Source: Thuidium tamariscinum (lineage: Eukaryota; Streptophyta; Bryopsida; Hypnales; Thuidiaceae). From it: a DNA stretch of 64,000 bases. Below the pieces are notes generated by a model that was not told where the DNA came from, searched no databases, and was given only the letters and a program-made list of their open reading frames with translations. Below, piece after piece: positions 1,778-43,515 of this stretch (positions are counted from its first letter, which is position 1; each line of letters starts with the position of its first letter). The stretch covers positions 47,653,821 to 47,717,820 of the forward strand of contig OX344750.2 of NCBI GenBank assembly GCA_947034885.2, written 5' to 3'. Position numbers and translations under genes: made by a program.

Positions 1778-1805
1778 AAGGCCTTATTCGTTAAAATGAG
1801 ACAAA
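1778..1805 (+). repeat. Left terminal inverted repeat of the 18-kb element
   Basis: It begins AAGGCCTTATTCG and continues to GAGACAAA. A single mismatch (C versus T at the 12th base) separates it from the right TIR. A second AAAATGAGAC follows at 1812-1821, 19 bp after the first, suggesting a repeated transposase-binding word. Confidence 0.85.
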
Positions 1806-2234
1806 ATGGTCAAAATGAGACTTTGAAGAAGTAAATGCAAAGATCCATGAGATCCATAGTTGTTGAAATCAAAGATACAAGAAGCTTGAGGTACGAGAGA
1901 GATCATGGAGTGCATTGAACATGTTCCCACTTATGACATCATAGAAGTAAGAGGAATTACATTGATAGTGAAAGAAACGAATTGCTAAGTGAAAGATGCA
2001 TATATGGAAGAGCAATTGAATTTACATTCCGTACAATTTATGTGGCCAAAACTTTAAGTCCAAAAAAGAGTGCCCCTAGTTACTCACAGTGGCACTTAGA
2101 GGTAATGAAGTACCTACTACTTTGTTTCGCGTGTGTAAGCTTAGAAATGAAGAAGTTCACTGTACATGGAACTCACTTCTTTCTGAATATGGTGTGCAAT
2201 GCCTAAATATTGAAGACCTCACAGACAAATGATT
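1806..2234. other. Sub-terminal non-coding DNA of the 18-kb element
   Basis: Lies between the left TIR and the end of the minus-strand cargo. It holds a second sub-terminal AAAATGAGAC word and no convincing coding sequence. It should contain the 3' ends of the minus-strand transcripts, but I see no clean AATAAA signal. Confidence 0.5.
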
Positions 2235-3149
2235 TTAGGGTTTAAGGGTTGTTGCCTCACTACTAGTATTGGCTGTACACTTTGGCTTCGAGCTTTCCAT
2301 CTCTTTGAGTTTAGCGAGCGCCCGGAAGATATCCTCGCGTCGAGAGGGATAGTGAATTTTACTTTCAGAACCACCTTCGCCGCATGAGCAGAGGCTGTGC
2401 GACCTACTCTCCTTTCGCTTCGGCTTCTGGTTTCTCGGATGAACCTCCAAGTTTGAGAGAGACCTGGACCCACGAGGCGGCTTCGGCACCGACGTATTGA
2501 CACTGTTTATGTACGCACGACCCGATCCAATGGACTTCGAGTCCGAGGATCGTCGATGATCTCTAATAACTCTTTGACGAAAAAGAATGTCGGCGGAAGA
2601 AGTTCTCTTCACCCCAACAGAGAACGCGGGCCTGGAATCGTTATCTTCGAGTCGAGGATGCTGCTTTGCTGGGGACGATTCCAAACGTTCGGTCTTCGAC
2701 TGCAGAGCGACGCGCAAATCCGGACCACTCACGTCGACGACATGTTCCGGGGTGGTCTTCACATCCCCATCTTCGCCTCGAGGATTGGGGGCAGCCTCCA
2801 TAACAGTGAGGTCCAATTTCCGGTTTGTCCCCACCTCCGTCCGCGGAGATGGGGAGAACGAGTGTTCTCGACCCGAAAACGTGCACTTTAGGGGCGACGG
2901 TGAGCAGATGGGCGTCCGCAGGGGTCCCCGACTCGGGGGACTGTCAACGACGCCGTCCTCGATGTCGCCCTTGGAGAAGTCGATCGCCGCGGACGCGGCG
3001 TCCGCGGCGGAGCGCATCATGAATGGTTTGGAGACCGGGATCGTCTCGCAGCTCCCCCCCACGGAATCGGAGGCATGTGAGACGGACTTCTCGGATCCGG
3101 AGAGAAGACTCCTCGTTAGTTTTTGTCCTGCAAGCGTCTTCCCAAGAAC
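2235..3149 (-). CDS. Disordered Ser/Pro/basic protein exon, possibly 3' exon of the FCP1-like gene
   Basis: An open frame of about 305 codons follows a good minus-strand splice acceptor (TCTTCTCTTCTGGCAG, exon from 3149). The upstream part of the 327-residue ORF is probably intron. The product is rich in Ser, Pro, Arg and Asp, has a basic stretch near the C-terminus (PKRKESRSHS) and ends in a short charged helix (REDIFRALAKLKEMESS). No domain was recognised. A donor at 3354/3353 (GTC|GTAGAG) in the neighbouring FCP1-like frame is in phase 0 with this acceptor, so the two may form one gene through a 204-bp intron; without that join this exon has no start. Three element-specific palindromes or degenerate copies lie in it and are translated, one as RLED. 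GC content is well above the flanks. Confidence 0.5.
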   Translation of the reverse strand, partial: VLGKTLAGQKLTRSLLSGSEKSVSHASDSVGGSCETIPVSKPFMMRSAADAASAAIDFSKGDIEDGVVDSPPSRGPLRTPICSPSPLKCTFSGREHSFSPSPRTEVGTNRKLDLTVMEAAPNPRGEDGDVKTTPEHVVDVSGPDLRVALQSKTERLESSPAKQHPRLEDNDSRPAFSVGVKRTSSADILFRQRVIRDHRRSSDSKSIGSGRAYINSVNTSVPKPPRGSRSLSNLEVHPRNQKPKRKESRSHSLCSCGEGGSESKIHYPSRREDIFRALAKLKEMESSKPKCTANTSSEATTLKP

Positions 3150-5121
3150 CTGCCAGAAGAGAAGAGGATGCTTCGCTTGAAAAGACAATGTACAAAAAAC
3201 CAGAACATGCATCGACAATCGCAGAGAGAATATCAGGTTTGGAAGTCAAATTTTTATATACAAAATAATGTACCATGTACAAATTTACAGCGTTCATGAA
3301 GTGCCTAGCCACTAAGAGTGAGTCACGCGGGTGCTACGCCTGGCTGGCTCTACGACTATGCCTAGTCCACGGAGGTCGTAACGATGGCCAAGGTTATTGG
3401 CGGAGTTCCTCATCCCCTCCAACATGTTCTTGACATGGTAATCCGAGGCTTCCAGCGGTTTCGACCCAATGCGATTGGCCTCGACGAATTCCCGCATGCC
3501 CCCTCGGCGACACTCCGTATCCAAACGATGGAGCCAGGGCAACAACTTCTCCAAGAGGAAGTTGTCCCTCCGCTGTCCGTGGCTCCATTTGTCCAGGAAA
3601 ATGGCATTCCCCCTCTCATTGCAGAGGCTCTTTTCAGGAGTATCGTCAATGAGGAGGGTATTGTCCGGCCCGAATGATGTGTCCCCACTAGGATTAGAGA
3701 AAAGCTGTTTGGAAAGATCCTTGAAGAGGCTATATTTTCCTGCGCGCGAGAGGAAATTCCCCTTGGACAACTCTATCTTCCTGCACTGCTCCTGTGCTAA
3801 GACATCGAAAGGGGCCTTGCACTGGCTGAAAAGGTGCGCTGCGATAGGTTCTGTGTTGGACCTGTACATCGAGGTCCACACCAGAATCCTATCCGCGAAC
3901 TTGGAGACCTCTCGGAGGAACTCCACCACATTCTGGCGCACGAAGACCGCTTTGGGTCCGATGATAGTGGGCACTCTGTGGCAGAGAACATTGTCTTCGA
4001 CCCTGTACGTCTTCATTTTTTCGGCATACGCTGTCAGGGCGCATTGGCACAGTATTCCGTTGAGGTCAAAGACAATGTTCAGCCACTTCCTCCGCGCCCC
4101 GGGTACTACACGGGGAACCTCCCTCGGTACGCTCTCTCTCCGCTCCCCGCACTCTACCTGATCATTGCAAGACAACAGAGAAAAGAGTTACCTGGTTGAA
4201 CGCAGAGGTTGGGGAGCCAGACAGTGGGGTCATGCATTGCATTCCTCTAATTGACTGTGGGCTCCCGTTAGGACTTGCTTTCAAAGGCAGCGGACGGCAT
4301 ACGCTTTTGTTTTTTGCGAGCTGATAAAAAACATGGAGAATAACAATACAATTAGAGCGGAGGCATTTTGTATATTCAATTCCGTATAATTTATTTATAT
4401 AGATTAGAGGGTACATTCAAAATTGTTGTTCATCCAGAACCGACGGTTTCTACATTCACAGCTATGCTACACTACTCCACACACATCCCAGTCGCAGACG
4501 GGATCGCCGTCCACACCGAGCGGTTAAGGATTAGACACGCCGCCCTGTCAAGCCGCATCAATGCAAATGAGAGTCCACTACTATCGCATGCACAGAGTCG
4601 CTCAGGCAAATACACACTTGACGACGACCACCAACAAACACGTGATTTGTGTCAATCATATTTGTATGGATCCGATGATTGTACCTAAGCGGGACTCTCC
4701 CTTGGCATTTGCACTGCGCCCTCTACAAATGTCTCCACGGCGAGATTCTCGTCCTCCGTTTCTTCCTCTTCCTCTTCCTCCTGCATCCCCTCGCCGTAGT
4801 CGACCATCTCTTCGTCGGGATCATCTAACGCTTGCTGAGATGTTTGACACTCCACTGCCTCACCTTCTGCACCAGAGTTAGGTGCATCTTCCACAGCCGC
4901 GTCGGTCCTCCCAGCTTCCTTCATGGGGTCATCTTCGACTCGAAGATCGCCCCCCTTCACAGAATTCACTTCTACAACCCTGTGAGGCTCGGTCTGATGC
5001 TCGTCGAACGCCAACTGGTCTGACGACGCAGACACAGCGGGCATTGCAGAGGCTGGAGTGGACGAGACGAGATCCACATGCGCCAGCGAAACCACATCCT
5101 CAGTATCTTCGAGTCGAGGAT
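2643..5121. repeat. Palindrome copies inside cargo coding exons
   Basis: Copies of the element-specific palindrome occur at 2643-2659 (one mismatch), 4931-4947 (perfect) and 5105-5121 (one mismatch), with degenerate forms at 2769-2785 and about 2533-2550. All lie in open reading frames on the minus strand, where they are translated as PRLEDN, LRVED, PRLEDT and PRGED. Confidence 0.8.
3312..4175 (-). CDS. FCP1/NIF-like HAD-family protein with altered catalytic motif (transposon cargo)
   Basis: The 287-residue frame carries an FCP1-homology (NLI-interacting-factor-like) HAD domain. The motif-I segment is IVFDLNGILCQ, where family phosphatases have DxDx(T/V); the second Asp, the general acid/base, is Asn. 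Later landmarks are ILVWTSMYRSN (the conserved WTS/T segment) and LLIDDTPEKS (the DD-x-P-x-K metal-site motif). Active relatives dephosphorylate Ser/Thr residues, for example on the RNA polymerase II CTD; with D-x-N this copy may bind rather than hydrolyse phosphoprotein, which is inference. The N-terminus is uncertain: the frame begins with TTG, a splice acceptor CAG lies at 4158-4160, and the nearest in-phase upstream exon (ATG at 4242) would need an improbable 34-bp intron. It lies between the disordered exon and the large cargo gene on the same strand. Confidence 0.7.
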   Translation of the reverse strand: MSCNDQVECGERRESVPREVPRVVPGARRKWLNIVFDLNGILCQCALTAYAEKMKTYRVEDNVLCHRVPTIIGPKAVFVRQNVVEFLREVSKFADRILVWTSMYRSNTEPIAAHLFSQCKAPFDVLAQEQCRKIELSKGNFLSRAGKYSLFKDLSKQLFSNPSGDTSFGPDNTLLIDDTPEKSLCNERGNAIFLDKWSHGQRRDNFLLEKLLPWLHRLDTECRRGGMREFVEANRIGSKPLEASDYHVKNMLEGMRNSANNLGHRYDLRGLGIVVEPARRSTRVTHS

Positions 5122-8100
5122 GGGAGACAACATGCTGCACTTGCTGCAGCACAGGAGCAGCAACGGTCGGAGCTGCAGCTTGAAAATCAACAGTCTGGGA
5201 AGGTGCAGTCTGCGCACTCTGCGCAGGAATTGAGTTCTGCGACTGCACCATTGCCATGAGTCTGTTGATCTGGGTGTTCAGCTCGGAGAATCTGACGTCT
5301 GAGTTTGCCTGCACTTCCTTCAGCTCCCTCTGGGCAGCCTGCGAAGCCGCGATGGCTTCCGCGAGCTGCCTGTCCTTCTCCTCTCGCTCCTTCTTAAGCG
5401 CGGCTGTCTCATTCTTCCTCTGGATTTCTCGAGCCCGCCGTTGCTTGCGTCTCTCCTCGTCTTCCGCCCACCAGCCTTTCTCCACCTTGACGGTCACTCC
5501 TGAAGGTGCAATCACAGGCTTGAGTTCCACCGCCTTGAATGGCCTATCAGACTCGTAATCGTCATCTGAATCGTGTCAATGATCTCCGGGCGAGTCCGGA
5601 CCATCCAGAATTATGAGATCATCTGGATTTTCAGGACCCCAAGGCATCGCTTGTGTCTCCTCAACGACAAGGAGATCTTCATCCATGATCTCAGGAGAGA
5701 GGGCACGCGGGGTCGGCTGCATCGCGCGCATCTCGTCACCCTGCACAGCACGTTCTCGTTGCTGGATCTCCCACTCCGTATCGGACTCGATATCCTCTAC
5801 TACCCTGTCGGGAGGGGGGAGCTCTACACGAGCTGCAGGAACAGGCTCTCCTCCCAAGTCAGTGGGAGGAGGATCCGCGCGTACAGCAGGAGCCACCATC
5901 CAACCATGAATTTGGAAAATATTTGTTCCAAATTCACCTATCCCCTGTACTCCAGGGTCGTCAGTGGTTTGGGGGCCCAAATTCTCGCGTTCACGGATCA
6001 CTGGGCCAGTGGAATTAGGCGGCGAGACTAAATCTGTCGTTGGAGTCGGTGGAGAGTTTGAGTTCACTATGACAGGACCCCGACTTGCTGGACGCTCGTA
6101 TGTTAGCGAATACAGAGAGTTCGCAAACATATAATCATTTGCATCCATCTTATCAGCAAGATATGCTATCTTGCGCAAGCCTTTATCATCACCACGGTCT
6201 ACAAATCCGTAGAAGTATGCTCCGAACATCTGTGCGCAAACAAGAAACTGATTAGAAGTATTTCTACCAATACTCATCACGCACATGAGATAGAGGAGCC
6301 TTCACCATCTTCGACTTGAAGATGGTGTCAAAGAATTGTGCCTACAAACAAAGTAAAATACAATGTCCATGAACATGATTCAAAGAGAAGTCAAATGTTG
6401 GAGATATCTTCGACTCGAAGATATCTTTGAGTATAGCCTACTAGTGACGTACCTTGGAAGCCAAAAGAAACTTCGTGCCACAGTAAATTCCCAAAATGTT
6501 GTCTTCTGGCTTTGCAAAGTCCTGGAGGATTTGCAGATAAAACTCCATGCGGAGTTCAGAGACACTGATCCGCCATTTCACCTCCGTGTTCCACCTGAAC
6601 TCGGAATAGTACAACACGTCACTAGGAACGCTGTAGCGCGTTCTAACGTAAGCGCGGGCTGTGGTAGCGAAGACATTCCCTTTCTTGAAGAGAAAGAGAA
6701 GCGGCACATCGGGAGCCTTCTCCGCGGATCTGTTGGAGATATTGTTGATCCTCTCTGCCTTAGATGGGAGATACTTCGACGACACAACGTCGTAGTCCTT
6801 CATCTTGGCAGCCGCGAATTTCTTTGCGGCTTTCAAATCCTCAGGGCCGTCCAAAATAAAGAGCCACACGTTTGCCTCTGACATCTTTGGCTCCAGTTTT
6901 GCAGCTAGGAAATCCAGAAACGGATCAAGGGCAGCTGCTGTATCCGTTGGCTTGGACCTCGGCACCTGCCTTCCGTCCAAGACGGCCAGGTTTACAACTC
7001 GACTGTGGTAGTGATAGCTCGTGCTTGTCACCAGTGCCTTGGCCGCAATTTCAACTCCTCTCACCATCACCCCTCCAGAAGGTTCCTTCAATTTATACTT
7101 GAGCTTGACGAACTGAGTCAGCATATGGAGTACTTGTGGGAATTTCTCCGCAAGGTCCAGGGCTGTCTTCGTCCACGCATCATTTTGGAGCCTCCGCTTG
7201 AAGTAGTCTGCAGGGGGATGAGAGAGCAAAAAATCCCAAGTTCCTAACGTAAATTTATGGCGAGCCTTCCAGTCTTTCCACGTCTTGTCGACGACATCCC
7301 CGTCTGTATTAAAGAATTTCAGGGATGGCCTCACTGCCATCAAATCCTGAAGAATAACTTTCTTCCGCTTACGGCGGTCCACCCAATCTGTTGCTGTCAT
7401 GTTGTCCACTATCAACAACCTCGGCCTTGCCACGGACAGTTCCGGGTACGCAACTCTACGGTTTGGCGTCTCACCAAGCAAGTGGATTGCAAAAGCCTTG
7501 AAGTCGTTATCAGTGAAACGACCAAAGTGTCTGAAGAACTCTTTCTTCAGTGCTGATTTGGCGCGATTGAATGTCTTTGGAGCTCTATAGGGCTTCAAAG
7601 TGAAGGGGTCAATTAGATCACCGTCAGCGTGCATCGTTAAGAACCGTTGCCAGTGGGAAAAAATATCATCCGGCAAGGTGATAATTTGTAACTCGTTTTT
7701 CAGATCTGCTGGCCCTCGGATCTACACCCCTTCATTCTCTGGATTGATATTCTGAAAACGTTTTACTATCAACCTTGTGAATTTCTGCACAATGAATAGA
7801 CGAGAAATTTCTGTCAGAAAACATAGATTACTGTTTACACAAACTCGTGTATGACATGTACACGACTAGTTAAATTGGCAATTACAGGACTACATGAATT
7901 TTTATGAGAGGGTTACCCGTTCATCATTTAATTGAAACAGAAGTTCTACTTCTAGCCCAGCATCTTCGACTCGAAGATACTTAGAGGATAGAGCGCCGTA
8001 CCTCATAGCTCTTGGTACAATGAACTGCACCATTTCCCCGCGTTGCGCCTTCGTTTTCGTCGTCGCTAGGCCGTTCGCATGAAATCCAAATGTTCCTACA

Positions 8101-9423
8101 GTTGATTATTTGGTTTCCCCACGTTGGTTGCGCGTGGTTCAAATGGTTCGTGCAATTGTAGAACTTAGAAATCGTTGTCAACTTTGCCGTATCCAAAGTC
8201 CACACAATGTAGGCATCCCATGTTTGGAGTTTCGATTTCCGCTCTTCACTGCAGCTTGCAACCTGGAGTTCCTTCGAGGCCGAGATGCTGTGTTGGCCAT
8301 TTATGATCATGAACTTGCCCTTCTCTATGTCTTCCCATTTTCTGGGCTTCGAATTCAACAAGTTCAGGTGCTTGTCCACAGGTGTCAGGCACACCTTCTG
8401 ACGCTGCCTCACATCTATGATTTGCACTAGCTCCTTCTTCACAGCATCAACGATATCTCTTTGCAGAGTCCAAATAATGTACTCATCACGCGCGATATGG
8501 CACTGATCTATGTTTACTGGGAAAGTCTCCATCCCAAAGAGAAAGCAAGGTTCATGAACAGCCCAAAACTCCTTCTGGATGAGGTTAAATTTCTCATGCT
8601 CTACCATGGGTGCGTCCTGTTTAAGCTGAGTAGCTTGCACTGTTGTGAGCCTTGAACCTAAGCTCCCCGTGGCTGCAGATGCACTTAACGGATTTGACTT
8701 CTTCTTTTTTCGCCCTGATTCCCCAGGAGTAGAGCATGCCTCCACGAGTTTTTGGGGCTCGGATCGCACCTGAGACGGTCTTGGTCCGCGACTTCGTGGT
8801 GGTGTTGAAGTTGATTGCGTGCGCTTTGTACTTTGCGAGGGGTTCTGTGCACGAGTCAATGCACCACCTACTGCTGGCCTCTTCTCAACATTCTTTACTA
8901 CATAGTGATCCAGTACTTGCCATATGAGGCGAAGCCTTTTGGCGTTTGACTTTGCAGTACTATGTCTCCAAGGTACATAGCCAGCGTTCTCAAATTCTGC
9001 GTTCAGAGCATCCATTTGCGATCCCTCTAGAAACGTCATTAGGTTCTGCAAGTCAAATTTCCCGTGGTGTGCATTTACGTCGAGCACAATGGAGTGACTA
9101 TGCACTCCGGCCTTTCCACTGTCGTCTACTTCTCGGAGGACGATAACGACGAAATCATCGCGGTGTTCCTCGATGACAGTGACTTTTTCCTTCAGATTCC
9201 ACGGGAGATACACCTCTTTTCCCTGAATTCGGTACCGAAGGTAGACGAAGTCTTTCCAACGGTTAACTCCAAAACTCCATGTCGAGATGTGCTCTTTGAA
9301 TTGCCACAGCTTCCCGTAAGATTCCTCCATTTCGTCAAAGAATGGTTTGTCTAGGAACGGATTTATGAATTCCTCCAGATGGTGTTCAGTTGGTGAGTAG
9401 TCATAGTCGTCGTCGTAGTCCAT
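4685..9423 (-). CDS. Large multi-exon cargo gene: GQH (ParB-like) segment, possible methyltransferase-like segment, coiled-coil tail
   Basis: Four exons join in phase 0: 9423-8002, 7784-6453, 6341-6285 and 6229 onward, with donors GTACGG, GTACGT and GTGCGT and clean acceptors. ATG at 9423 directly follows an intron acceptor (TTTTTCAG). Exon 1 (474 residues) has a Tyr/Asp-rich start, a basic Ser/Pro linker and a C-terminal segment with MIINGQHSISASKEL, resembling the GQH(R) motif of ParB/DGQHR proteins. Exon 2 (444 codons) ends FAKPEDNILGIYCGTKFLLA, which may correspond to the motif-I region (PGD.VLD.FxGTGTT) of beta-class DNA methyltransferases; I see no intact catalytic DPPY/NPPY. The tail holds an R/K/E/Q-rich coiled coil and an acidic C-terminus. 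In-frame stops TAG (7722-7724) and TGA (5576-5578) interrupt it, so this copy may be defective, or end at 5576 with 1154 codons instead of about 1451. Function unknown. Confidence 0.6.
5576..5578 (-). other. In-frame TGA in the large cargo gene
   Basis: The frame runs uninterrupted before it (DGPDSPGDH) and for about 295 codons after it (HDSDDDYESD, then the coiled coil). It could be the true end of the protein, a disabling mutation, or be removed by an intron using the acceptor CGATTCAG just downstream; I could not pair that with a good donor. Confidence 0.55.
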
Positions 9424-9899
9424 TTTCTCTTCCTGAAAAATTTAGTGTAATCGTACTTAGTTGCTTCTTATCTTCGAGTCGAAGATAAGATTGGTCTTTG
9501 CCTAGAACTGGTCTCTTTAGAGTTCACCATGCAAAATTCTAAGGTTGTAAATTAGTCGAGAATAGCTTACCCAAGTACTATATTCACGTGGACTTTAACT
9601 GATTGAGCTCTGGAGTGGTTTTTTAATTATTAATAGAGTCTGCGATCTTCGACTCGAAGATATTAGTGTCCTCTAGTTATTATTTTGTTCACAGCTTTCT
9701 GGAGTTTTAGCGAAGGAAACCTAGTTTTAGTGAGACGTATTTGAATCCAACGGTTCTATACACTATCTTCGACTTGAGGATAGTGTTCAAGACTTACTAT
9801 TGGCTTGAAGTTTCACTCGAGCACTCATGCAACGATAGAATCAGGTTACAAATATTCTAAACATTGACAACCGAGTAGGCTATCTTCGAGTCGAAGATA
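6303..9899. repeat. Palindrome copies in cargo-gene exon, introns and leader
   Basis: Copies lie at 6303-6327 (inside the 57-bp exon), 6402-6426 and 7962-7978 (introns), 9466-9490 (leader intron next to the ATG), 9645-9661, 9760-9786 and 9881-9899 (leader region). The core is ATCTTCGA, one S base, TCGAAGAT. Several are extended to 25-27 bp by extra self-complementary bases that differ between copies. Confidence 0.85.
7722..7724 (-). other. In-frame TAG in the large cargo gene
   Basis: This is codon 21 of exon 2, between NPENEGV and IRGPADL. The frame on both sides looks coding and continuous from the acceptor at 7784. No intron of plausible size removes it, so it is a nonsense mutation, a sequencing error or a sign that the exon structure differs. 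Confidence 0.6.
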
Positions 9900-10560
9900 C
9901 CTTACCCAAGTCAGGAGGACCCCTGGAGAAGGCGAGTAACCACAGTCTGAACCTTATTCCTCTCAGAATTTCCATTATTAACGTCCTAAACCCTAATGCA
10001 CAACCAGTTTCTCCGAATCTTTGCGAAGTTCATCAAAATTTACACTGGTTCAAAACCGTAATGGGCAATTACAAAACAATTGCACAATCTTTACAGAAAA
10101 ATGCAGAACCTTTCCTATCAGCGACTCCAAAGAAACATTCAGAATTCAAACTGCTATTAAAAAAATGCAGTAGGCACGGGATTCTTACCTTCCGAGAAGC
10201 ACCTAAACCAAGTCCTGCTGTGGAAGTGCACTCGACAACCCAAAAAACAAATTGCAAGTTCTGCAGTTCTCACAGAGGTTCGCTGTCAATTACCGTAAGT
10301 GATCACCTCGAGGTACACTCCTCTCAGGTGGAATCCTAAACCCTGAATAATGTGATGACCTAAACGCATTGAAACAGAAGAAGTTACGAGCTCCGTAATC
10401 CTAATTTACAGCTTCGAATTGCAGACCAAGCGCCAAAACCTAAACCCTAAACCCTGGCAATCCTGTTACCAGAAATCGGAAAAGCTCTTTCTACAAATGC
10501 AGCAAGAAGTTCATTAGGAAGCGCTTAGCTTGAAAATCTGAAGCTAGGTTCCTAAACTAC
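9900..10560. other. Leader or upstream region of the large cargo gene
   Basis: Non-coding, moderately AT-rich. It contains several plant telo-box-like AAACCCTA words (near 9990, 10337 and 10437-10455). These are common in plant promoters, but here are only suggestive. Confidence 0.35.
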
Positions 10561-10599
10561 AAGAAGAATAGGAATCCTACGATGAAGCCCACACACCTG

Positions 10600-11160
10600 A
10601 GAGGTTTCTGAATACGCCGCAGCCGCCGCTTCTCCGGACCAGCCCCCGCTCACCGCGCACACAACGTTCACACACCGAAGCACCCCTCAATCACGACCTT
10701 CCCCGCAGAATTGCAACCCCACCGCGTGAAGATCCCGACGATTGCGCGGACTCCCAGGAGTAACCCAGATCACAAAACCCCACAACCCACGAAAGACCCC
10801 TTCGCTAAGAACACGAGAAGTGCACACACAACAGAGCAATGCAGAGGAGATGCAAATATAAAGAACACGCGAAGGAAGTCTCCCAACAAGGAAGCGCTTG
10901 CGGCCGAGGAAACCACGCAGACAGGAACGCGGCCGAGGAAGCGCTTGCGGCCGAGGAAGGGAGACGACCAGCCGAACCTCTCCGCCCCGGTAGTTCCCGA
11001 ACCTGCCAGCCGCCCGTTCATTGCCGAACCAGCCTGGCCTACTTACGTGGCCGAACCTGCCTGCCGCCCCGGTCTTTGCCGAACCTGTCTAAGAGGTTTC
11101 CCAGGCCTGACCTCCTCCGAACCTGCGTATGAGGTTTGGGTAACCGTGAACTCGAACGAA
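10600..11160. promoter_or_regulatory. GC-rich island upstream of the minus-strand cargo genes
   Basis: A GC-rich stretch set in AT-rich DNA, placed where the promoter of the minus-strand gene would be expected. It contains a direct repeat, GGAAGCGCTTGCGGCCGAGG, at about 10890 and 10937, and four or five spaced copies of CCGAACCTGCC or variants between 10990 and 11130. A 162-codon plus-strand frame (10711-11199) runs through it but reads as repeat translation (AEPA, EPAC), so I do not call it a gene. Confidence 0.35.
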
Positions 11161-11199
11161 ATTCCTAGATACATTGTCTCCGTTTGGATGAAAACATAG

Positions 11200-14100
11200 A
11201 GGAGTCCCTTTTTTGTAGACGAAGTAGATGAAGAATGGTTAGTATGTAACAGTAGAAGTTTAGGAATGCAATTCACCCATTTATCTCCCCATTTGGATAA
11301 AGAATTGGATGGATCAGTCTCTATTTTTAGAGTAAGAATTTTTTTGTATAACAATCAAAGGTTTAGCTTAACAATTAAAGTTTATATATAACGATAAAAG
11401 TTTGTACGTAACATTGAAAAAATGATCCACCAATTTCTATGAGACAAAGTACCCTAAAAATTCTTTACATCTACATATAAGCAATTTCATATTCAGTGTG
11501 AATAGCATTGGTAAATTTCATGCAAAATAATTTTTTTTCTATTTGAACTAGGAAGCAAACCAAGATTCGGTGTACACTACAACTTTCACACCTACAAATA
11601 AAGTATGCCTAAGCTTTTTAAATCTTTAGTGTAAAGTGCAAGTTGAAGCACCTTTCAAAGTATCGTGCATTTATTTTGATGATAATGCAAAATGAACTAG
11701 TATGAAAATTTGAATAAGAGCATTGAATTTGAACAACATATAAGCATTAAAGAATTTTCAGAAGTTCCTAATTCAAAATAGAAAGCGTCCCACAAGAGCT
11801 ATTTTAATTTTGTATGCAAAGTGACACGAGCATGGAGTATTTTTGTTATTACAAAAATAGTTGAGTGATCTCTCTATAAGAGATCAACCACATATAGTTC
11901 TCTATTCTTCTAAAATTAATAATTCTTTTAATTATAATTTTTGTTAAGTGAACATTCCCTAAGAATAAAGAACATAGAAGGACAAATTATATTAACGTGT
12001 TGTACTATACCGTAGAACCCTTCTTTTAAAGTAATTTTTAAATTTACAATAATTTTTTCTTAAAATGACTTCAAATTCAATCGAAGTTTTAGGCTTAATG
12101 CTATTCATCAATTATTTTGTTTCAAAAAACATAATTAAAGGAATTTGAACCTAAACAACTTCTTGAAATACAAACTACTTAAAATAGAAATTTGGGTAAG
12201 TTTTAATTAACTTCAAATTTCTGCAAACACCAGATTCTCGTGCCTTGGGTAGTTAGGGGTTAATGTACAAGAAGGTACTCTGAATACGTTTTTGAAATCT
12301 GGAATGCCTTCATTCAAAAGAATGTCCAAAGTGACAATTATCATTCCTTAAACATATTTACAAGAGAAAAAAATTGAGCAAGTTCCAAAGGCATATAGCA
12401 TCCATGTTCTATGAGAAATGTTCATGTCACATGTTGAATTCTTTGGAGTTCTTTATTTCCAAAGAAAATGCCAACTACGTTGTTGATCCCTAAACCCTTC
12501 AAATACAAAAATACCATTATTCTTATGTAGAGAACTAAGGAAAAAATAATGTACAATTTCCAAAGTCATAGAATGTCCATGTTCTATGGCAAATTCCCTT
12601 GTGATGTGCAATGCTGACCAGAACTCAGTTTTACTACATAAGCGTTGAGTTTCCCATTGTTCTTAATTATGTGGAAAGCAACAAATACATAGACATTTAC
12701 GTATCCTAAATAGAAGCAAAAAGTAGGGAAAGATCCAAACTCGTAGAACATACATGTTCTATGAACAATCTCATGTAATGTACACGATTGAGTCCTTGAA
12801 ACCTAGAAGTCATTTGCCATGAAGTTATCAAAAGGGATGAACATTTGAAGATTTATGTGTGTCACGTAAACAAAAATAACGTGCAGAAGTTACCAAGTTA
12901 CTAATTCCTATAAAATATTTTGGAATTGCTGAAAATACCGTTTTTTATGGAGAGGGCCATCTCTGTCAATTTGTAAAAATGAAGTACAACAATGCCTTTC
13001 ATTGAGGACTTACTTGACAGAAATTTAACCTCAAGTTTTCTAAAGTTGTATGTAGCGTTCTCACAAAATCTTAGCCTTGAAGTTGCATAATTATAGAGTT
13101 ATCTCTACATATTAAATACGAACTTGAACTCATAGGTTATCGTTTAGAAATGAAACCTATTTTTGGAGTGCCCAAATTTTATTGATTTTCAACTTAACCG
13201 AGATATACTTTCTATAATAAACCCTATTTTAAGCAATACAAAGCATCTCAAATAGTAAGTACTACGAGATATTATTCAAATTTTTAAAATTCGCTCATGA
13301 CAGATGTCGATGGGAATATAGAACTCAGTATTGACAATGATATGATTAATTACTAGACATTCATGATTTCTCAAATGTATATAGTGCACTATAGAAAGTC
13401 ATAACCGTAGAGAGCACTTACTGTATGAATTACTAATTATTAGTATAGTGATGAAGTCCAACTCCAATCATTAGGAATAACTACTTCATCATCATTGACA
13501 ATAGTTCACTTGCCTGAATACATAAATAACGTGTACTTGTCCACAACTCACATCATTGAATAGAGCACTATGTATTATTTTCATGACTATCTATGCCTAA
13601 TTCCTAAGAACTAAGGCCTTCCAATGTATAATTACATATGTAAAACAAATAAAAATGATACAAAACATTTATAAATATTTTATGCTATAATGAAGAGGGT
13701 TTGTTTCTAGGATTCAAATACAATGTAATGTATGTACATAATTTGCGAAATATGCAATGTGAACGTTTCACAAATAATGACGGTGTGGCCCTTTTTCGTT
13801 TTCCAATCTTGAATTAGGCAATTCGATGCCATGATATTCAAATTCGTGCTTGAAATAGGGTGTCCAAGGACTTTACAACTTTCACGTATTTTTTTTGGCT
13901 TCCCTTGACGTGGAGTTTTTGACATTTGAGGGATTTGGGTTCGAAGTCAAACAATGGCAGTGCGGCCCTTTTTTATTTTCCAATCTCGAATTAGGCAATT
14001 CGATGCCATGATATTAAAATAGCAAAAGTCTTTCACTGTAAAATTTACTTTTACGTTAGTATTTAGGTTTTTAAGAAAATGGAAATTCAAAATTTGTGGG

Positions 14101-15060
14101 AAATTCATACAACATTAATGTTTTCAATGTGTAAATTCATACAATATTAAAAGTGTAAATCGTGGCCCTTACTTTTGTACAAATGAAATGAAAAGTCTTA
14201 TATGGCTTCCTCATTATGTCACAAGATCTTAGGGCTACAAGAGAAACAAAAGCTATAAAATCATGAAACACACATGTTCCATGGTTTTTTACCATCAACT
14301 GCTTATAATTGGTCTAACACTTTTTTCCTAACCGTTAATCCTAAAGCATCCAATTTTGAGAATACTATTCATAATCTCATACAGAATGTGTTAGAAAATG
14401 AGAAGCATGTTAGTAGACAGAAACTAGAAATTGTCAAATAATGTAGAAGTCATGCACCACAATTTTTACAAATGAAAGGCTTCAACATGTTCAAAACGTA
14501 GTGTTGAAAGGAATCATTAAAAAAATGGTGCAATTTTGTAAAGAAATTTACAAAATCTCTTGTGCTTCGAAAATTACGTGCAATTGATAGGAAAAAAAAT
14601 GAAGTTGTAAAATCACAGAACACTGAAGTTCCATACTAATTTCAAATGACATCTTCATTACATGTGTAAAACTCTTTTTCAAAAATCGTAAATACTACAG
14701 CTTCTAACATGAAGAGAAAATGTGCACAACCTTTCAATTTCTGAAAATGGCATATGAATTAGTGGTCATGAAATATACAAGTTCAGATTCCTTAAACCCT
14801 AGAGTTGAACCCTAAACCCATATTCTAAACCTTAGCCATGAGTACCTATGAGATGCCTAGAACAACTGCAAAAAGTCGCTGGAATTTAAAGGCATGCTGA
14901 AATAGTAGTAGGTAGGTGGGAAAAAGTCATTGAAGACAATAATAGATTAATACTATAGGCATCGAAGTCTTTGTTGCCCGCGATTGAATGCACCTAGGAA
15001 GTTGCACCGTACAACTGTAAAAGTGACCCGAAATTCCGAAGTTCCCGAGGAATGTGGGAA
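11200..15060. other. AT-rich non-coding centre of the 18-kb element
   Basis: Nearly 4 kb without a credible coding frame, RNA gene or palindrome copy. A short block is duplicated: GGCCCTTTTTCGTTTTCCAATC... at about 13790 and GGCCCTTTTTTATTTTCCAATC... at about 13965, each followed by GAATTAGGCAATTCGATGCC. Otherwise I see nothing. It separates the two divergent transcription units. Confidence 0.45.
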
Positions 15061-15107
15061 GAAAGGTGCATGTACCGGACAGGTGTTTGCGGAATTTGAA
15101 ATGAAAA

Positions 15108-15167
15108 TTTTGGCGGAAAAGTTTTCCCGCCTCTCCCCTCGCGCCCGCTCCCATCTTTCCGCGGGAA
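15108..15167 (+). promoter_or_regulatory. E2F-like site cluster upstream of the transposase gene
   Basis: Three words fit the E2F class within 60 bp: TTTTGGCGGAAAA (15108-15120), TTTTCCCGCC (15122-15131) and TTTCCGCGGGAA (15156-15167). The island is GC-rich inside AT-rich DNA and about 1.2 kb upstream of the transposase ATG. In plants and animals E2F sites drive S-phase expression; applying that here is inference. Confidence 0.45.
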
Positions 15168-15579
15168 CTGCACGAGCACGGCGGATGAGCTCACAGCGAA
15201 GCGAAGCGAGGCTTTTCAATTCTTGCATTGTCGGCTGTGCTCTCCGGTCCATCGCATTCTTGTGAGCATTTAGTCCATTCATTTCTTTGAGTTCTTGACA
15301 CACTTGCTGAGCGGACGTAGGAAGTTTACTTCCTACCAAGTTTCTGTTTAGTTCTTGTAGGTTGGTGCAGGAAGTGGTACTTGCGGGTCATATTGAATCT
15401 CTTCTTTCATGCAGGTACGATATCTGAAGGTCTGAACAATTCGTGAATATTGTCTTCGTAGCTTTGTCATTGGAGCGAGGAATTTGTTGGAGATTAATTT
15501 CTGTAGTCGACTCAGAGCGATTCCGAAATTTGTGCCGTAAATTCTGGACCACAATTGTGTTTTGGCATTGATTAGTACA

Positions 15580-16332
15580 TTATATTCGAGTCGAAGATAA
15601 CCGAAGTGGATCTTCAGTATATGTTATGTAATTGTCACTGACAAATCCAACAACATGTATCTTCGAGTCGAAGATAACGATAGGGGGAGTGTAGTCCTTT
15701 GAAATTGAGTCGTAATTTCAGAATTCAAAAGAAATCATACTTCACTGCTAATGTCGCCGTCAACTATCTTCGAGTCGAAGATATCAAGATCTTTCTTCGA
15801 ATGAATGTTTCAGAGTACTATTATCTTCAATTCGAAGGAACTTAAGTTAAGTATGTTTGATGTAAAGATTGTGTAAACAGACGTCTTCAACAGGAAATTG
15901 TTTCTTGATCAAAGTTTTGCATCTGAGTGTTGAGGACTGAAGGACATGCAAGGCATTTGTCCTTAGGACTAACAGAGATAGAAACCATGTATCTTCGAGT
16001 CGAAGATAACACAGTCAACTATCATGAACTAACTGACATAACAATTTCCTTATCTTCGAGTCGAAGATAGTCATCGGGTATTAGAGACTTTGGTCTTTCA
16101 GAACTTATCGTTTTGAAAGTGGGGAATGATACGTCAGTGCGAAGTTTTTTGTGAAGTGAGCTCTTACGATAGCAAATACATAGACAGGATGGCTTTATAC
16201 ATACGTATATGCTTATAGTAGGATGTACATCGCCTATTACAATCTCAGTCAATTCTTACGTACTTAACGGCTTCTCTGTATATTTCTATTAGACATCTTA
16301 CAAATACATTCCTTATCTTCAAGTCGATGATA
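15580..16332. repeat. Palindrome cluster in the leader of the transposase gene
   Basis: Seven copies in 750 bp: 15580-15600 (one mismatch), 15658-15676, 15765-15783, 15823-15839 (degenerate), 15990-16008, 16051-16069 and 16314-16332 (two changes). The perfect form is TATCTTCGAGTCGAAGATA. The last copy sits just upstream of the acceptor that precedes the transposase start. Confidence 0.9.
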
Positions 16333-16358
16333 TGTATGTTCTGTTTTCTTTTTGCAGA

Positions 16359-19214
16359 ATGGACTATCATGGACCACATGACTTTGTTACTCCAATTCCT
16401 ACACTTCCACTTGATGTTCGTTTGTGTGACGGAACACCTCGTACAAAATGGGTCACGCAGCCTGTCACTCTTCAAGATGTGGACGGAGTGGACGTTGCAA
16501 GGGGAGTCATTCAGAATGTTGACCCTGAGCTATGCATTGATCAGAATGGGAAGTGTCTCGGTGATGATCGAGTTGCTGTTCACATTGCGGAGTCCTTGAA
16601 TGAGGAGTTGTTCTCAGCTGCAAATATGTGGTCTTTGCGTTCTTGGCCCATTAGGAGAGTGTTTCTGCATGATGGTGTTTCTTTGTACGACCACGATGAA
16701 ACGCATAAGTACAATGTAGCCATGAACCCCAAAAAAATTCGAAAGGGAGTTCGAGCATATGAAACATCTCGTGTCAAAATTGATCCTGAAATCCCTCCGA
16801 AGAAGGAACTTCTCATGACTATGGAATCGATCACAGACGTTTCTACAAGAACTTGTTGTGAGAAGAATTGTGTTCAACCTTTTCCGCGTGCACAAATTCA
16901 AGCAATAAGGACCGACTTGTATGGAGGAAATGACTACAAGGCTCGCAACAAGACCCTTCTGGAGGTGCATAGGCAAATCCATAGAGATGGTAGTGGGAAA
17001 GAGATGATCACCTTAAAAGACCGGGAAGTATGTCCTACTGCTTGGTGGATCATTCATGGGATTGCAAAATGTATGTACTATAGGTACAAAGAGAAAGCTA
17101 GAAATGGGATGCAAGCTGATGTGCATGGGAACATGGGAAGCAAGAAGCCTCGTATGCAAACTCTTCAAGCTACTGCCACACTTCGGAAGTTAATTGAGTC
17201 AGATGTTGATAAAATGCCACACAAGACAAGGACACTCCAGTCTGGGGAGAAAGTCACTGCCATGGTTCTCCCATCCTCGTTTCGTTGGAGTGATCAATTG
17301 GAAACAATCAATGAATCCAATGCTACGTTCAATTTGCCACCAATTTCTTCCAGTAGTTTGAGTAATATTCGTCGTGATTCTTTCCCTGAGTTCGCTGCAA
17401 AGGCTCGTGGAGATTCATTTGCTAGATGTGGATTGTGTGACAAATACAATCAGCTGAGAAGTGTTTGTGTGGGTGAAGAGGCAAAATCAAAATGGGAACA
17501 ACTGAAGAAAGTCCACAATCAAGGGCAATTGGCTCATAGACAACTCTACTACGGACATCGTGATCAATCAGTAAAAACGCCAGATAAGGTGTTGTGCATT
17601 ATTCACGACAAGATGGATCATTCCAAGACTGCTTCTCCACACTTTTCCCACAAGACTAAAGTGACAGAGTCGTTCATGAAAATGCCTGTTGCAGTTACAG
17701 GTATGATTGCTCATAGGCATGGGGATGTGCGATATGCACACTATGGTTTGGGCATTTATCCAACTGATTCAAATCATACCATAGGGTCGATTGCAAGGTT
17801 GTTGCGTGATTTGGAAGGAGCTCCAAAGAATTCATCGCGCAAGTTATTTTCAATTGAAGATAATCAGTCCACGTTGACGAAGGCGCTTTTAAATGGAGCT
17901 GAAACTTGTTTGGACTCTCTTCTTCCACCTCCAAATGAACCTCTTCCAGCTAAACCTCTTCCCCCTGTTCTAATGTTACAGCTGGACAATTGTTCAGGGG
18001 ACAACAAGAATCGTTATGTTTTTGGTTTTTGCTCTTTACTTGTGTGCAAAGGCATTTTTCGTGAAGTTTACATCAACTTTCTCATTGTGGGACACACTCA
18101 TGAAGACATTGATGCTCTCTTTGGTCGATGGAGCTCAAGATTAAAGACAAATAACTATCCAACACTTCCGAGGCTTATGAAGTCCTTCATGGATACTGAA
18201 GAGCACCCTGTGATTCCTCATCTCATTGAAGAAGTTCCTGACTTCAAGGCGTTCGTACATGGATACCTCGGCACGGGTGGGGACTTCCTAGAGGGTCATT
18301 CCAGATCTCAACAATTCAAGTTCTTCAAGGACTGTAATGGATGGCCTTTGATGGAATATAAACATTTGTGTACGGATGATAAGTGGTTGCCTGAGGATGG
18401 CAAGGGGATTAGATTATGGTCTGAGACTGCAGACGGACTTCCTAAAGTACCAATAGGAAGTCCTCCACCTTTAATTCCTGAACCAATGAAGGCTCTTCTA
18501 GACATAAAGAAGGGTTTGAATGGTTTTGTTGAGTATTGGAAAAAAATGGCAAATGACGATTATACAGGAGAGTTCAGGCGAAAGAATGGCGCCTTGGAAG
18601 ATTATTGGAAAGGCGTTCGAGTGGCTTTGGATGCACCTCTTCAAGTGCGTGAGTCATTACTTGATGGATTCTGGCCGGCCTCCAGGATTGCCCCTGACGA
18701 AACAGATCGCATGCAAAGAGATGGCACATTGCATGAAGAAGATGCAGAAGATGCGCCGTTCGTTGGACGTAGACGTGATCGACCGCGTCCTTCATTCCGT
18801 GTTAATATTGATACGCACGAGGGTTCTTTCATTGCAGTGCGCCCCGCTGATGGTGATCCTAAACCATTTTGGCTTGCCAGGGCCATCACAGCTCCAAGTC
18901 CAGATCCAGGGCATATGCATATGATCAGAATTCAATACTGGACACCTACCTCAAATCGACACATTAATATGGATACCTATGAAGGATGGGATATGAAACA
19001 AGGGAATGTGTGGCATGAGGACACTGCGATCAAGCCAACATGGTCAAGTACGGGTTGTATCCTAACAACTTGGAAGCCTCGTTTTCGAGAAAATACTAAG
19101 AAACCAAAAGTGTCAATTCCAAGTTTACAAATTGGCATTATTAAGGCATCATTGGCAGCCTTGACAATGAATGATCGCAATGATGAAGATGATGAGTCAA
19201 TGGAGGAGGAATGA
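16359..19214 (+). CDS. Putative DDE-type transposase of the 18-kb element (DUF7869-like)
   Basis: A single open exon of 951 codons. The ATG at 16359 lies two bases after a strong acceptor (TTTTCTTTTTGCAG); nine further in-frame codons upstream are probably intron. Cysteine motifs occur at C166/C167/C171 (CCEKNC) and C357/C360/C370 (CGLCDKY...), possibly zinc-binding. The second half has IIHDKMDHSK (D417, D420), LQLDNCSGDNKNR (D543) and GHTHEDIDALFG (E582, D583, D585). The spacing, D420 to D543 then 39 residues to E582, fits an RNase-H-fold DDE triad. The block matches what I recall as the DUF7869 domain of non-seed plants and other eukaryotes; its role as a transposase is inferred from the triad and from its place inside TIRs. 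The C-terminus is acidic (DEDDESMEEE). No frame damage is seen. A polyadenylation signal follows at 19418. Confidence 0.8.
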   Translation: MDYHGPHDFVTPIPTLPLDVRLCDGTPRTKWVTQPVTLQDVDGVDVARGVIQNVDPELCIDQNGKCLGDDRVAVHIAESLNEELFSAANMWSLRSWPIRRVFLHDGVSLYDHDETHKYNVAMNPKKIRKGVRAYETSRVKIDPEIPPKKELLMTMESITDVSTRTCCEKNCVQPFPRAQIQAIRTDLYGGNDYKARNKTLLEVHRQIHRDGSGKEMITLKDREVCPTAWWIIHGIAKCMYYRYKEKARNGMQADVHGNMGSKKPRMQTLQATATLRKLIESDVDKMPHKTRTLQSGEKVTAMVLPSSFRWSDQLETINESNATFNLPPISSSSLSNIRRDSFPEFAAKARGDSFARCGLCDKYNQLRSVCVGEEAKSKWEQLKKVHNQGQLAHRQLYYGHRDQSVKTPDKVLCIIHDKMDHSKTASPHFSHKTKVTESFMKMPVAVTGMIAHRHGDVRYAHYGLGIYPTDSNHTIGSIARLLRDLEGAPKNSSRKLFSIEDNQSTLTKALLNGAETCLDSLLPPPNEPLPAKPLPPVLMLQLDNCSGDNKNRYVFGFCSLLVCKGIFREVYINFLIVGHTHEDIDALFGRWSSRLKTNNYPTLPRLMKSFMDTEEHPVIPHLIEEVPDFKAFVHGYLGTGGDFLEGHSRSQQFKFFKDCNGWPLMEYKHLCTDDKWLPEDGKGIRLWSETADGLPKVPIGSPPPLIPEPMKALLDIKKGLNGFVEYWKKMANDDYTGEFRRKNGALEDYWKGVRVALDAPLQVRESLLDGFWPASRIAPDETDRMQRDGTLHEEDAEDAPFVGRRRDRPRPSFRVNIDTHEGSFIAVRPADGDPKPFWLARAITAPSPDPGHMHMIRIQYWTPTSNRHINMDTYEGWDMKQGNVWHEDTAIKPTWSSTGCILTTWKPRFRENTKKPKVSIPSLQIGIIKASLAALTMNDRNDEDDESMEEE

Positions 19215-19417
19215 ATATTTTATAGTTCGAATAGTAGATTGCAGTTGTTGTATTTCAATTTCTAGATAGTGTTCTCATTGTAGTTGGAAGTATTGAAAAT
19301 GATATTTATAATGAATATTTTATAGATGTAGTAGTACATTTCAGTTGTTGTATTTCAATTGGTAGATTGCTTTTCTTAATGTCGTATGACAGTGATATTT
19401 GTATGTTTATGTAGTAC

Positions 19418-19423
19418 AATAAA
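19418..19423 (+). terminator. Candidate polyadenylation signal of the transposase gene
   Basis: AATAAA about 200 bp after the stop codon, in an AT-rich 3' region, inside the right TIR of the element. Confidence 0.45.
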
Positions 19424-19808
19424 TGGATATGCCATTCATCACACTATTGTGAGTATGTAGTGAATACGGATTTCTATTAATAGTAAATTTATATTTTTTA
19501 CAATTGTATCTCAAAAAGTTGTGCGTACAAAATATTTCCTTGCATAAAAGAGTTGGTGACCTTTAAAAGTATTCATTTAAGAAAAATGTATTCTAATTTA
19601 CGAAATGATTTGAGTATTTTCTTTACTTGTAAAACAATTGAAAGAAAAAAATTGGATATTTATAGTAGGTATTTGAAATTTGTTTCAATAAAATAATAAT
19701 AACTAAGTATAGTTTTTGGCATTTTCCAGTCTCAATTTAATGAGAAGTCTCAATTTAATGAAATCTTTTTTTGCCTTAAAATAGAAAGTCATTAAAATGA
19801 GACCACAA

Positions 19809-19836
19809 TTTGTCTCATTTTAACAAATAAGGCCTT
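19809..19836 (-). repeat. Right terminal inverted repeat of the 18-kb element
   Basis: Read on the minus strand it begins AAGGCCTTATTTG. Inverted and direct copies of the AAAATGAGAC word lie just inside (19794-19803) with two GTCTCAATTTAATGA variants at 19729-19743 and 19747-19761. TTAT follows at 19837-19840. Confidence 0.85.
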
Positions 19837-19840
19837 TTAT

Positions 19841-41973: not shown

Positions 41974-43515
41974 TTGAAAACAAGGTCCGACCGCTACTTG
42001 ATGATGGGGGATCAAGGGCCCTTTGAGCCACCAGAGCCTCTAGACCTTAATGGAGCTCCATTTAGAGAATTGATACTTGAGATTGACTCTATGATGATGC
42101 CTCGAGGGTTGCCCATTGTAGTACTTCAAGGGCTTAGGGAGATCTCAGTCCCTCGTTCTCTTCCCAAATTCTCGGGGTCTAAAGACGATGATCCTGTAGT
42201 CCATATCGAGAAGTTTGAAGAGATTCTTATCTCCCATTTGATTACCAACTCCGATTACTACTTGATCTGGTTCCCAATCACATTGACAGGTACAACCTAT
42301 GCATGGTACCATTCACATGCAGCACGCACCTTTGCGACATATAGACAGTTACAAGTGGCATTCCTTCGATACTTCCGGCCTGAGATCACTCAACAGCAAG
42401 CCTTAACAACACTCATCAATACTCGACGAGGTCCCACTGAGGACATCACCACCTATATTCAACGATTTCGAGTGGTCTCTACTCACTTTGTAGGGAGCTT
42501 GTTCAACGACAATACTATGCGATATTATTTCATCCAAGGAGTGGATTCAGCCTCGACTATTCGAGCAATCTTATCACGGAGGCCGGTTACATTGAACGAC
42601 ACCATTTTAGCCGCTTTAGAGATCGAGATCATCGACAAAGAGAGCGAGCAAATCATAGGGCGAGTTAATGACCCTAAATCGGCCTTCATTCCAATCCATC
42701 AACAAGAGGCTGATCTTCTAGCAAGCCGTTCTTCTTCGTCTAAGGAAGATGTATTTTCTTCGGCTACTCAAGATTCCATGACTGCACCTGTTGATAAGCT
42801 TCGCATAGAGATACTGCAAATCTCCAACGACATGACTTGAGCTATACGAGAGTTAACGGAGCAGATGGCGTGTTTAATGAAGGGGCAAAGCCGACAGACC
42901 AATGAATCTAGCATACATCCAGCCGGAGTATGGTATAGTCATTGTGATCAAGCCAACCACACACCACCTTTCTGTCCACGATTAAAGAACGCTCCACCTC
43001 CAACCCAGCATCGAGGCCCTGCATCTCCATATCAACATCCAAAGGTCCAAGGCCAAACGGCACACGAAGTCATCTCCTTACCTCAATTCTGAAACATTGA
43101 AGACATCATGCATATAGCTATGGGTGCCCCTAAGACCTCTACAACCATGGAGTATCAAAGTGTTTGTTGTTTAGGGGCTACAATCCCTTAGAAAGAGACA
43201 CTCCAAGGATCTTTACCAAGCTCTATAATCTATGCGGGTGGCAACTCTTCCAACCTTTATGATGAAGGGGATGATTTGGTGAAAGCCAAGGCAAACATTT
43301 CATTGGGCCAGTTGGTCTATGTGGCTTCGACCTTGCGAAAGCAGTTGAAGGAAGAGACAACGGAGGAGTTAGTCACCAACATGCGTGATGATGATGATGA
43401 CTTTGCTATTGAGCCCATCAATGGCCTCACCTTAGAAAGTTCCTCACAGTCACCACTTGAGCCTGGTAATGCCCTTCTAAACCGAAAGACACCTCTTTCT
43501 ATGATCATTCTATAG
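41974..43515 (+). pseudogene. Retrotransposon gag, broken by stop codons
   Basis: The first frame (41974-42840, 288 residues) has the Retrotrans_gag capsid signature: YAWYHSHAARTFATYRQLQ, LRYFRPEITQQQ, TYIQRFR and a FIQGV segment. It would package the element RNA. A single in-frame TGA (42838-42840) is followed in the same frame by a nucleocapsid-like zinc knuckle with Y-x2-C-x4-H-x4-C (YSHCDQANHTPPFC), where the first Cys of CCHC is Tyr. Two further in-frame stops lie between 43092 and 43276, and the frame then ends at 43515. No protease, reverse transcriptase, RNase H or integrase follows, so the element is gag-only and dead. Confidence 0.75.

Follow-up and report, generated by a model that had tools for sequence, protein, structure and literature searches.

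The subject of this analysis is a DNA transposon of 18,059 bp in the moss Thuidium tamariscinum, found at positions 1778-19836 of a stretch of 64,000 nucleotides (the window; contig C2:47653821-47717820), and the short palindromes, or dyads, that recur along it. The element is a complete terminal inverted repeat (TIR) DNA transposon, recently mobile, and belongs to a family that is large in its host and comprises several lineages. Its dyads are selected, dyad-symmetric and largely element-restricted sites, the arms of which covary and the decay of which is slowed. We propose, with a probability of roughly 0.5, that the dyads are docking sites for a protein of the element itself, used for self-regulation or for anti-silencing of the kind exerted by the VANC proteins. 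On its plus strand the element encodes a DUF7869 protein, the presumed transposase. On the minus strand lie a gene read from three exons (D, C and B), a NIF/FCP1-like gene and a fourth conserved open reading frame (ORF), ORF A.

The boundaries of the element are sharp. The left (1778-1805, plus strand) and right (19809-19836, minus strand) inverted repeats are 28 bp long and match at 27 of 28 positions, and direct reading of the flanks shows TTAT as a target-site duplication (TSD) on both sides (1774-1777 and 19837-19840). The left 28 bp has no other match of 20 or more positions anywhere in the window, on either strand. The sub-terminal word AAAATGAGAC is present at positions 1793 and 1812; near the right end it is found in both orientations, at 19794 and 19812. 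The initial annotation had described a complete TIR transposon with these boundaries and this size, and had suggested a paired-end search with its first and last 200 bp, which we ran on the host genome (363 Mb, 19 contigs). The left query returned 108 candidates; among the best 40, which were scored, at least 18 host copies matched over the full length at 91% identity or more, and the remaining 22 were partial or weaker (76-92%) and are relatives or fragments. The right query returned 218 candidates, of which 40 were scored, and pairing of the two lists by eye gave all 18 left ends a correctly oriented right end, with the same termini as in the window copy. Eleven pairs spanned 18.06-19.21 kb and three 19.5-20.1 kb; the other four were longer (23.8, 34.9, 39.7 and 51.6 kb) and presumably hold later insertions.

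A perfect 4-bp TSD was found in 15 of the 18 copies, and the flanks differ among copies. The duplicated sequences varied and none was common: TTAT occurred twice, and AGGC, GACT, AAGT, AGAT, TGTC, TTAA, CTTA, CACT, AGAG, AGAA, TTTT, CTCA and AAAA once each, although TTTT and AAAA adjoin further T or A and are hence weak evidence. The three imperfect flanks were TAAA/AAAA and AAAA/TAAA (both on contig C11) and ATTC/AATT. The fixed inverted termini read in 18 copies, together with the fixed length of the TSD, identify the family as class II TIR transposons, and on these points the initial annotation was borne out. We considered TTAT as a target preference and rejected it, because the duplications differ among copies and TTAT is the window copy's own. 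Two near-identical copies on C11 (9002759-9020890 and 9520598-9538741) lie on opposite strands about 0.5 Mb apart with reciprocally swapped TSD flanks, as expected if an inversion of about 0.5 Mb had arisen by recombination between them, or if the assembly were in error.

The window element carries 18 dyad sites of the form ATCNTCGANTCGANGAT (up to 3 mismatches), located in promoter-proximal, intron and coding DNA. Seven lie upstream of the DUF7869 ORF, within 15582-16331 (15582, 15659, 15766, 15823, 15991, 16052 and 16315, that at 15823 being weak), and four upstream of exon D, within 9470-9898 (9470, 9645, 9765 and 9882). The C/B intron holds two (6307 and 6406; 6307-6422), the D/C intron one (7962-7978), exon B two (4931 and 5105; 4931-5121) and ORF A two (2643 and 2769; 2643-2785). 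At the same threshold a sister copy had 21 sites, the stretch containing R1 also 21 and R2 19, R1 and R2 being divergent relatives of the element elsewhere in the genome. R2 has sites in all of the window copy's site locations and R1 in all locations within the stretch fetched. The 44,165 bp beyond the right end of the element contained no site, and a block of other DNA inserted in R1 has 1 weak match.

The form ATCTTCGASTCGAAGAT (up to 4 mismatches) was found at 19 places in the element, 10 of them exact; four sister copies had 18 each, and the window's other 46 kb had none, while 30 first-order Markov resamplings gave a mean of 0.5 and a maximum of 2. Exact sites across the genome number 258 for one symmetric form and 386 for another, and reversed controls gave 0. 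From the listing for each form we took the first 50 distinct places and compared them with the scored element genes: 50 and 36, respectively, lay within 20 kb of such a gene; stretches within that distance make up 1.06% of contigs C1 and C2.

The sites also decay more slowly than their surroundings. When four noncoding stretches were aligned across subfamilies of the element, 190 of 221 bases were identical inside 13 sites (86%), versus 1150 of 2079 outside them (55%; Fisher p 1e-20). Covariation of the two arms was clearest at dyad position 5, where 47 of 79 sites were complementary versus 29.4 in shuffles, with 0 of 2000 shuffles reaching 47. It was weaker at positions 9 and 10, and the near-invariance of most inner positions makes them uninformative. 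Across the genome, asymmetric exact sites number 119 (64 + 55), versus 371 expected under independent arms, which also speaks for covariation.

We hypothesize that one element-encoded protein, most likely the product of the D-C-B gene, binds the approximately 18 ATCNTCGANTCGANGAT dyads as a dimer. The bound protein would control the genes beside the two main clusters, D-C-B at 9.47-9.90 kb and DUF7869 at 15.58-16.33 kb, and occupancy of the element by its own protein would perhaps counter silencing by the host, in the manner of VANC on VANDAL elements. The DUF7869 protein, as transposase, would act on the AAGGCCTTATT ends and produce insertions with a 4-bp stagger. The D-C-B product contains, by eye, the motif INGQHSIxAxK in exon D and, at the C/B junction, G-x-K-F followed by GAYFYGF, with D-x-R at the position where the catalytic DPPY usually stands. 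We take the first to resemble the ParB-type GQHR motif and the second a degenerate methylase; these likenesses carry no statistical support. A bolder version of the proposal, which we regard as tentative and rather doubtful, is that the family is a plant superfamily without a name that has its own address system, in which a ParB-like and degenerate methylase-like core protein would read about 20 dyads in promoters, introns and exons, and the arms would change together as lineages diverge.

Anti-silencing is a natural part of this proposal because the copies bear a methylation footprint. Among ten sister copies, 282 of 395 singletons in the first 10.5 kb were C-to-T or G-to-A, and decay of this kind affected 9.6% of cytosines in CG, 14.3% in CHG and 1.8% in CHH context. 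Decay that is highest at CHG and next at CG is a plant-type methylation footprint, and suits both the many TAG stops listed and a plant host, which the initial annotation had supposed. The closest known parallel is VANDAL/VANC of Arabidopsis. VANC21 binds YAGTATTAY motifs that are enriched in VANDAL21 (PMC5735166), and the likeness is that a plant DNA transposon encodes an extra protein and has a short, family-concentrated motif that differs between families (PMC5735166). VANDAL elements are of the MuDR type, whereas the moss element has a 4-bp TSD and no MULE transposase match, and docking on it is predicted from sequence. If the proposal is true, the dyads would be a second, separately built case of a transposon marking its own DNA by sequence, and multi-gene coordination or escape from silencing in large DNA transposons could be tested in a host with many near-identical copies.

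Several observations weigh against docking by an element protein, or against its anti-silencing form. C-to-T decay of CG cytosines affected 5 of 62 inside the sites versus 148 of 1378 elsewhere (Fisher p 0.67), which is not significantly lower; there is no sign of lasting local hypomethylation at the sites in resident copies, which counts against anti-silencing there. No element protein matches a recognized DNA-binding family: Pfam DUF6551 was reached at E 0.096 in one of three exon-D members, exon C gave nothing meaningful, and comparisons of exons C and D with PDB, Pfam, PHROGs and phage records, and of exon D also with NCBIfam, gave nothing usable. The structure models of exon D (3 sequences; mean predicted local distance difference test score, pLDDT, 36) and of the DUF7869 protein (4 sequences; mean pLDDT 31) were too poor for use. 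The VANC21 motif is 9 bp long, lies in one orientation and is mainly noncoding (PMC5735166), in contrast to the 17-bp, partly coding dyad described here. Exon B, which holds two sites, is only 22-34% conserved in relatives. The genome-wide deficit of asymmetric exact sites is partly due to lineages preferring different forms, and sites in related copies are not independent. Finally, 14 of the 50 listed places of the second symmetric form have no scored element gene nearby. These 14 places form two clusters, C1:22086886-22100747 and C2:36047200-36056608, with seven sites within 0.9 kb on C1, and the clusters may be elements outside the scored lists.

The main rival, which is possible but which we hold to be on the unlikely side, is that the dyads are a promoter switch only, bound by a transcription factor of the element (or of the host) that toggles two divergent genes and has no silencing role. 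The 11 of 18 window-copy sites upstream of exon D or DUF7869, and the finding of no local relief from C-to-T decay, would be explained by such a switch, but the other 7 of the 18 are intronic or coding, and the relatives also have sites in such places. These same seven, as modelled, fall in transcribed regions, and palindromes can form hairpins, so the dyads could instead act in transcripts, for example in splicing or RNA stability. We consider this very improbable, since 11 of the sites are upstream of the two ORFs and the single central base of a 17-bp dyad would form a poor loop.

An improbable, if less remote, alternative takes the likeness to ParB at face value: a ParB-like protein would spread from the dyads, as from parS, and hold the element together or join its ends in transposition. 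In ParB-parS systems, too, the DNA that codes for the presumed binder bears repeated palindromic sites of about this length, and the moss dyad is of parS-like length and recurs along an element with INGQHSIxAxK in exon D. The setting differs, however, in being a chromosomal transposon, the likeness to ParB was seen by eye and was not significant in searches, the exon-D model is poor as noted above, and no ParA was seen among 7 ORFs scanned. That the whole element is an old relic or a captured host segment, non-autonomous today, is the least credible reading, and barely so at all. The window copy's D-C-B gene does have two in-frame stops; against this, near-identical copies occupy many sites with fresh 4-bp duplications, and the DUF7869 ORF is uninterrupted in 7 of 11 copies.

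We return to docking by an element protein as the preferred reading, and to the proteins that would take part in it. The DUF7869 ORF (16332-19214, plus strand) encodes 960 amino acids, matches Pfam at E 1e-44 and has a ratio of nonsynonymous to synonymous divergence (dN/dS) of 0.091 between subfamilies. The intact, long, transposase-like ORF that the initial annotation had pointed out is thus present. Its description as DDE-like, which would imply an RNase H-like fold, is made plausible by conserved acidic motifs: HDKMDHSK and LQLDN are found in all four aligned proteins, and GHTHEDID in three; the fourth has K in place of E. DUF7869 was the sole Pfam match in all four family members, none of which matched a MULE or a KDZ transposase domain, and comparison of the alignment with PDB gave nothing usable. 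A full-text literature search, subscription papers being outside it, found no paper naming DUF7869. DUF7869 gains a concrete setting, in that the long ORF lies within well-defined ends with a 4-bp duplication.

MuDR/MULE elements have TSDs of about 8-11 bp, longer than the 4 bp found here. Polintons have a 6-bp TSD and encode a protein-primed polymerase and a retroviral-type integrase; no match to either enzyme was found in the 7 ORFs scanned, and the TSD again differs. A likeness to Polinton/Maverick and other giant eukaryotic transposons lies in a length above 15 kb and several genes (PMC6431247). A virus or Polinton was rejected as an identification, since the 7 ORFs gave no supporting match and viral contigs yielded no confirmed relative of DUF7869 or of exons C or D. 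Fungal transposons carrying TET/JBP genes are similar in that they have an additional gene with a supposed role in silencing; their TSDs are given as 8 bp for Zisupton, 2-3 for Plavaka, 3 for EnSpm, 7 for hAT7, 2 for PHISTA and 6 for IS3EU (PMC12730594). The 4-bp TSD fits none of these, Zisupton included, and no TET/JBP match was found in the 7 ORFs. Judged by sequence, the TSD of 4 bp and the sole DUF7869 match do not fit MuDR or Zisupton/KDZ. Like the initial annotation, we found no match to a named superfamily among Pfam matches and published TSD lengths, Repbase and Dfam being outside the comparison. Full-text searches on moss giant transposons, phosphatase/NIF, ParB/methylase and KDZ/Zisupton, again with subscription papers outside them, found no description of the element.

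The initial annotation had regarded the minus-strand genes as unrelated cargo, a reading that we reject: they are core genes, because their order recurs in divergent relatives. R2 (C1:27.93-27.95 Mb) is complete, 18.8 kb long and flanked by CTCA on both sides, with the gene order of the window element and protein identities of 61% for DUF7869, 43% for D, 41% for C, 46% for NIF, 41% for A and 22% for B. R1 (C9:16.75 Mb) is interrupted, with about 9 kb of other DNA between the two parts of its exon D, and shows identities of 57-58% for D, 59% for C, 34% for B, 51% for NIF and 52% for A; in the 20 kb fetched, neither its DUF7869 gene nor its right end was found. The arrangement also recurs across the genome, where we scored 136 of 484 candidate matches for NIF, 101 of 450 for exon C and 48 of 943 for DUF7869, all of which are lower bounds. 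NIF lay on the same strand, on the expected side and within 25 kb for 78 of the 101 exon-C matches, 70 of these at 2-6 kb; it was on the other side for 2 and on the other strand for 1. Exon C or NIF was in the expected arrangement for 43 of the 48 DUF7869 matches.

Exon D (8002-9423, minus strand) starts from an ATG and contains the motif as INGQHSISASK. Exon C (6453-7784, minus) has a GT donor and an AG acceptor, as judged from the sequence. In the window copy the 5' part of exon C contains one of the two in-frame stops, close to its end, and exon B (4688-6229, minus) has the other. We read the three as probably one gene: two subfamilies show GT/AG borders where C meets B, the window copy shows them where D meets C, an open version of each exon exists elsewhere, and at least one copy has all three open. 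With dN/dS of 0.079 for exon D and 0.062 for exon C, and the value given above for DUF7869, these main genes are under purifying selection.

The NIF/FCP1-like gene (PF03031, E 5e-15; 3312-4175, minus strand) has no stops in 9 of 11 copies and a dN/dS of 0.205 (other frames, 0.90 and 1.49). NIF/FCP1-like phosphatases have the catalytic motif DxDxT, in place of which motif I reads DLNG(I/V)L in all three aligned members, DLNGIL in the window copy; comparison with PDB gave nothing usable. The gene is a standing component of the transposon family and not captured freight, and its product may be a core accessory factor, possibly in transcription. ORF A (2238-3245, minus strand), for which an upstream exon is possible, has no stops in 10 of 11 copies. 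Its dN/dS between subfamilies of 0.55 is not decisive, as it barely differs from the 0.61 of one other frame (the second gives 1.31), and its coding status therefore rests on its conservation in R1 and R2.

Recent movement is evident from the other whole copies. Over their whole length, eight of nine are 98.5-99.5% identical to one reference copy if differences in tandem-unit number are set aside, and the ninth is 97.4-98.6% identical to it in longer blocks. The tandem unit, of about 360 bp, lies at approximately 10.8-12 kb of the element in sister copies, differs in number among copies that are otherwise near-identical; of the palindromic sites listed for the sister copy, none falls within it. 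The window copy is of a different subfamily, with blocks of about 91.5%, 79% and 86% identity and a middle that did not align at standard settings. This middle (element positions 7700-14560) aligns to a sister copy piecewise, at 59-63% DNA identity and with only short, weak protein-level matches, for which reason we took it to be noncoding. At the left, 1778-4777, comprising the left end, ORF A and NIF, has an identity of 91-100% with the other subfamily in 250-bp intervals. Synonymous divergence (dS) between subfamilies is 0.036 for NIF, 1.50 for exon C, 1.53 for exon D and 0.63 for DUF7869. The window copy thus appears to be a mosaic, best explained by exchange of cassettes between subfamilies or element lineages.

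The family is unevenly distributed in the genome. Contig C11 (17.5 Mb) holds 61 of the 136 scored NIF matches, or 3.49 per Mb versus 0.15-0.31 on eight other contigs of known length, and may be a sex chromosome or an otherwise non-recombining one. Elsewhere in the window, a 288-amino-acid ORF at 41974-42840 resembles a retrotransposon gag, by eye only.

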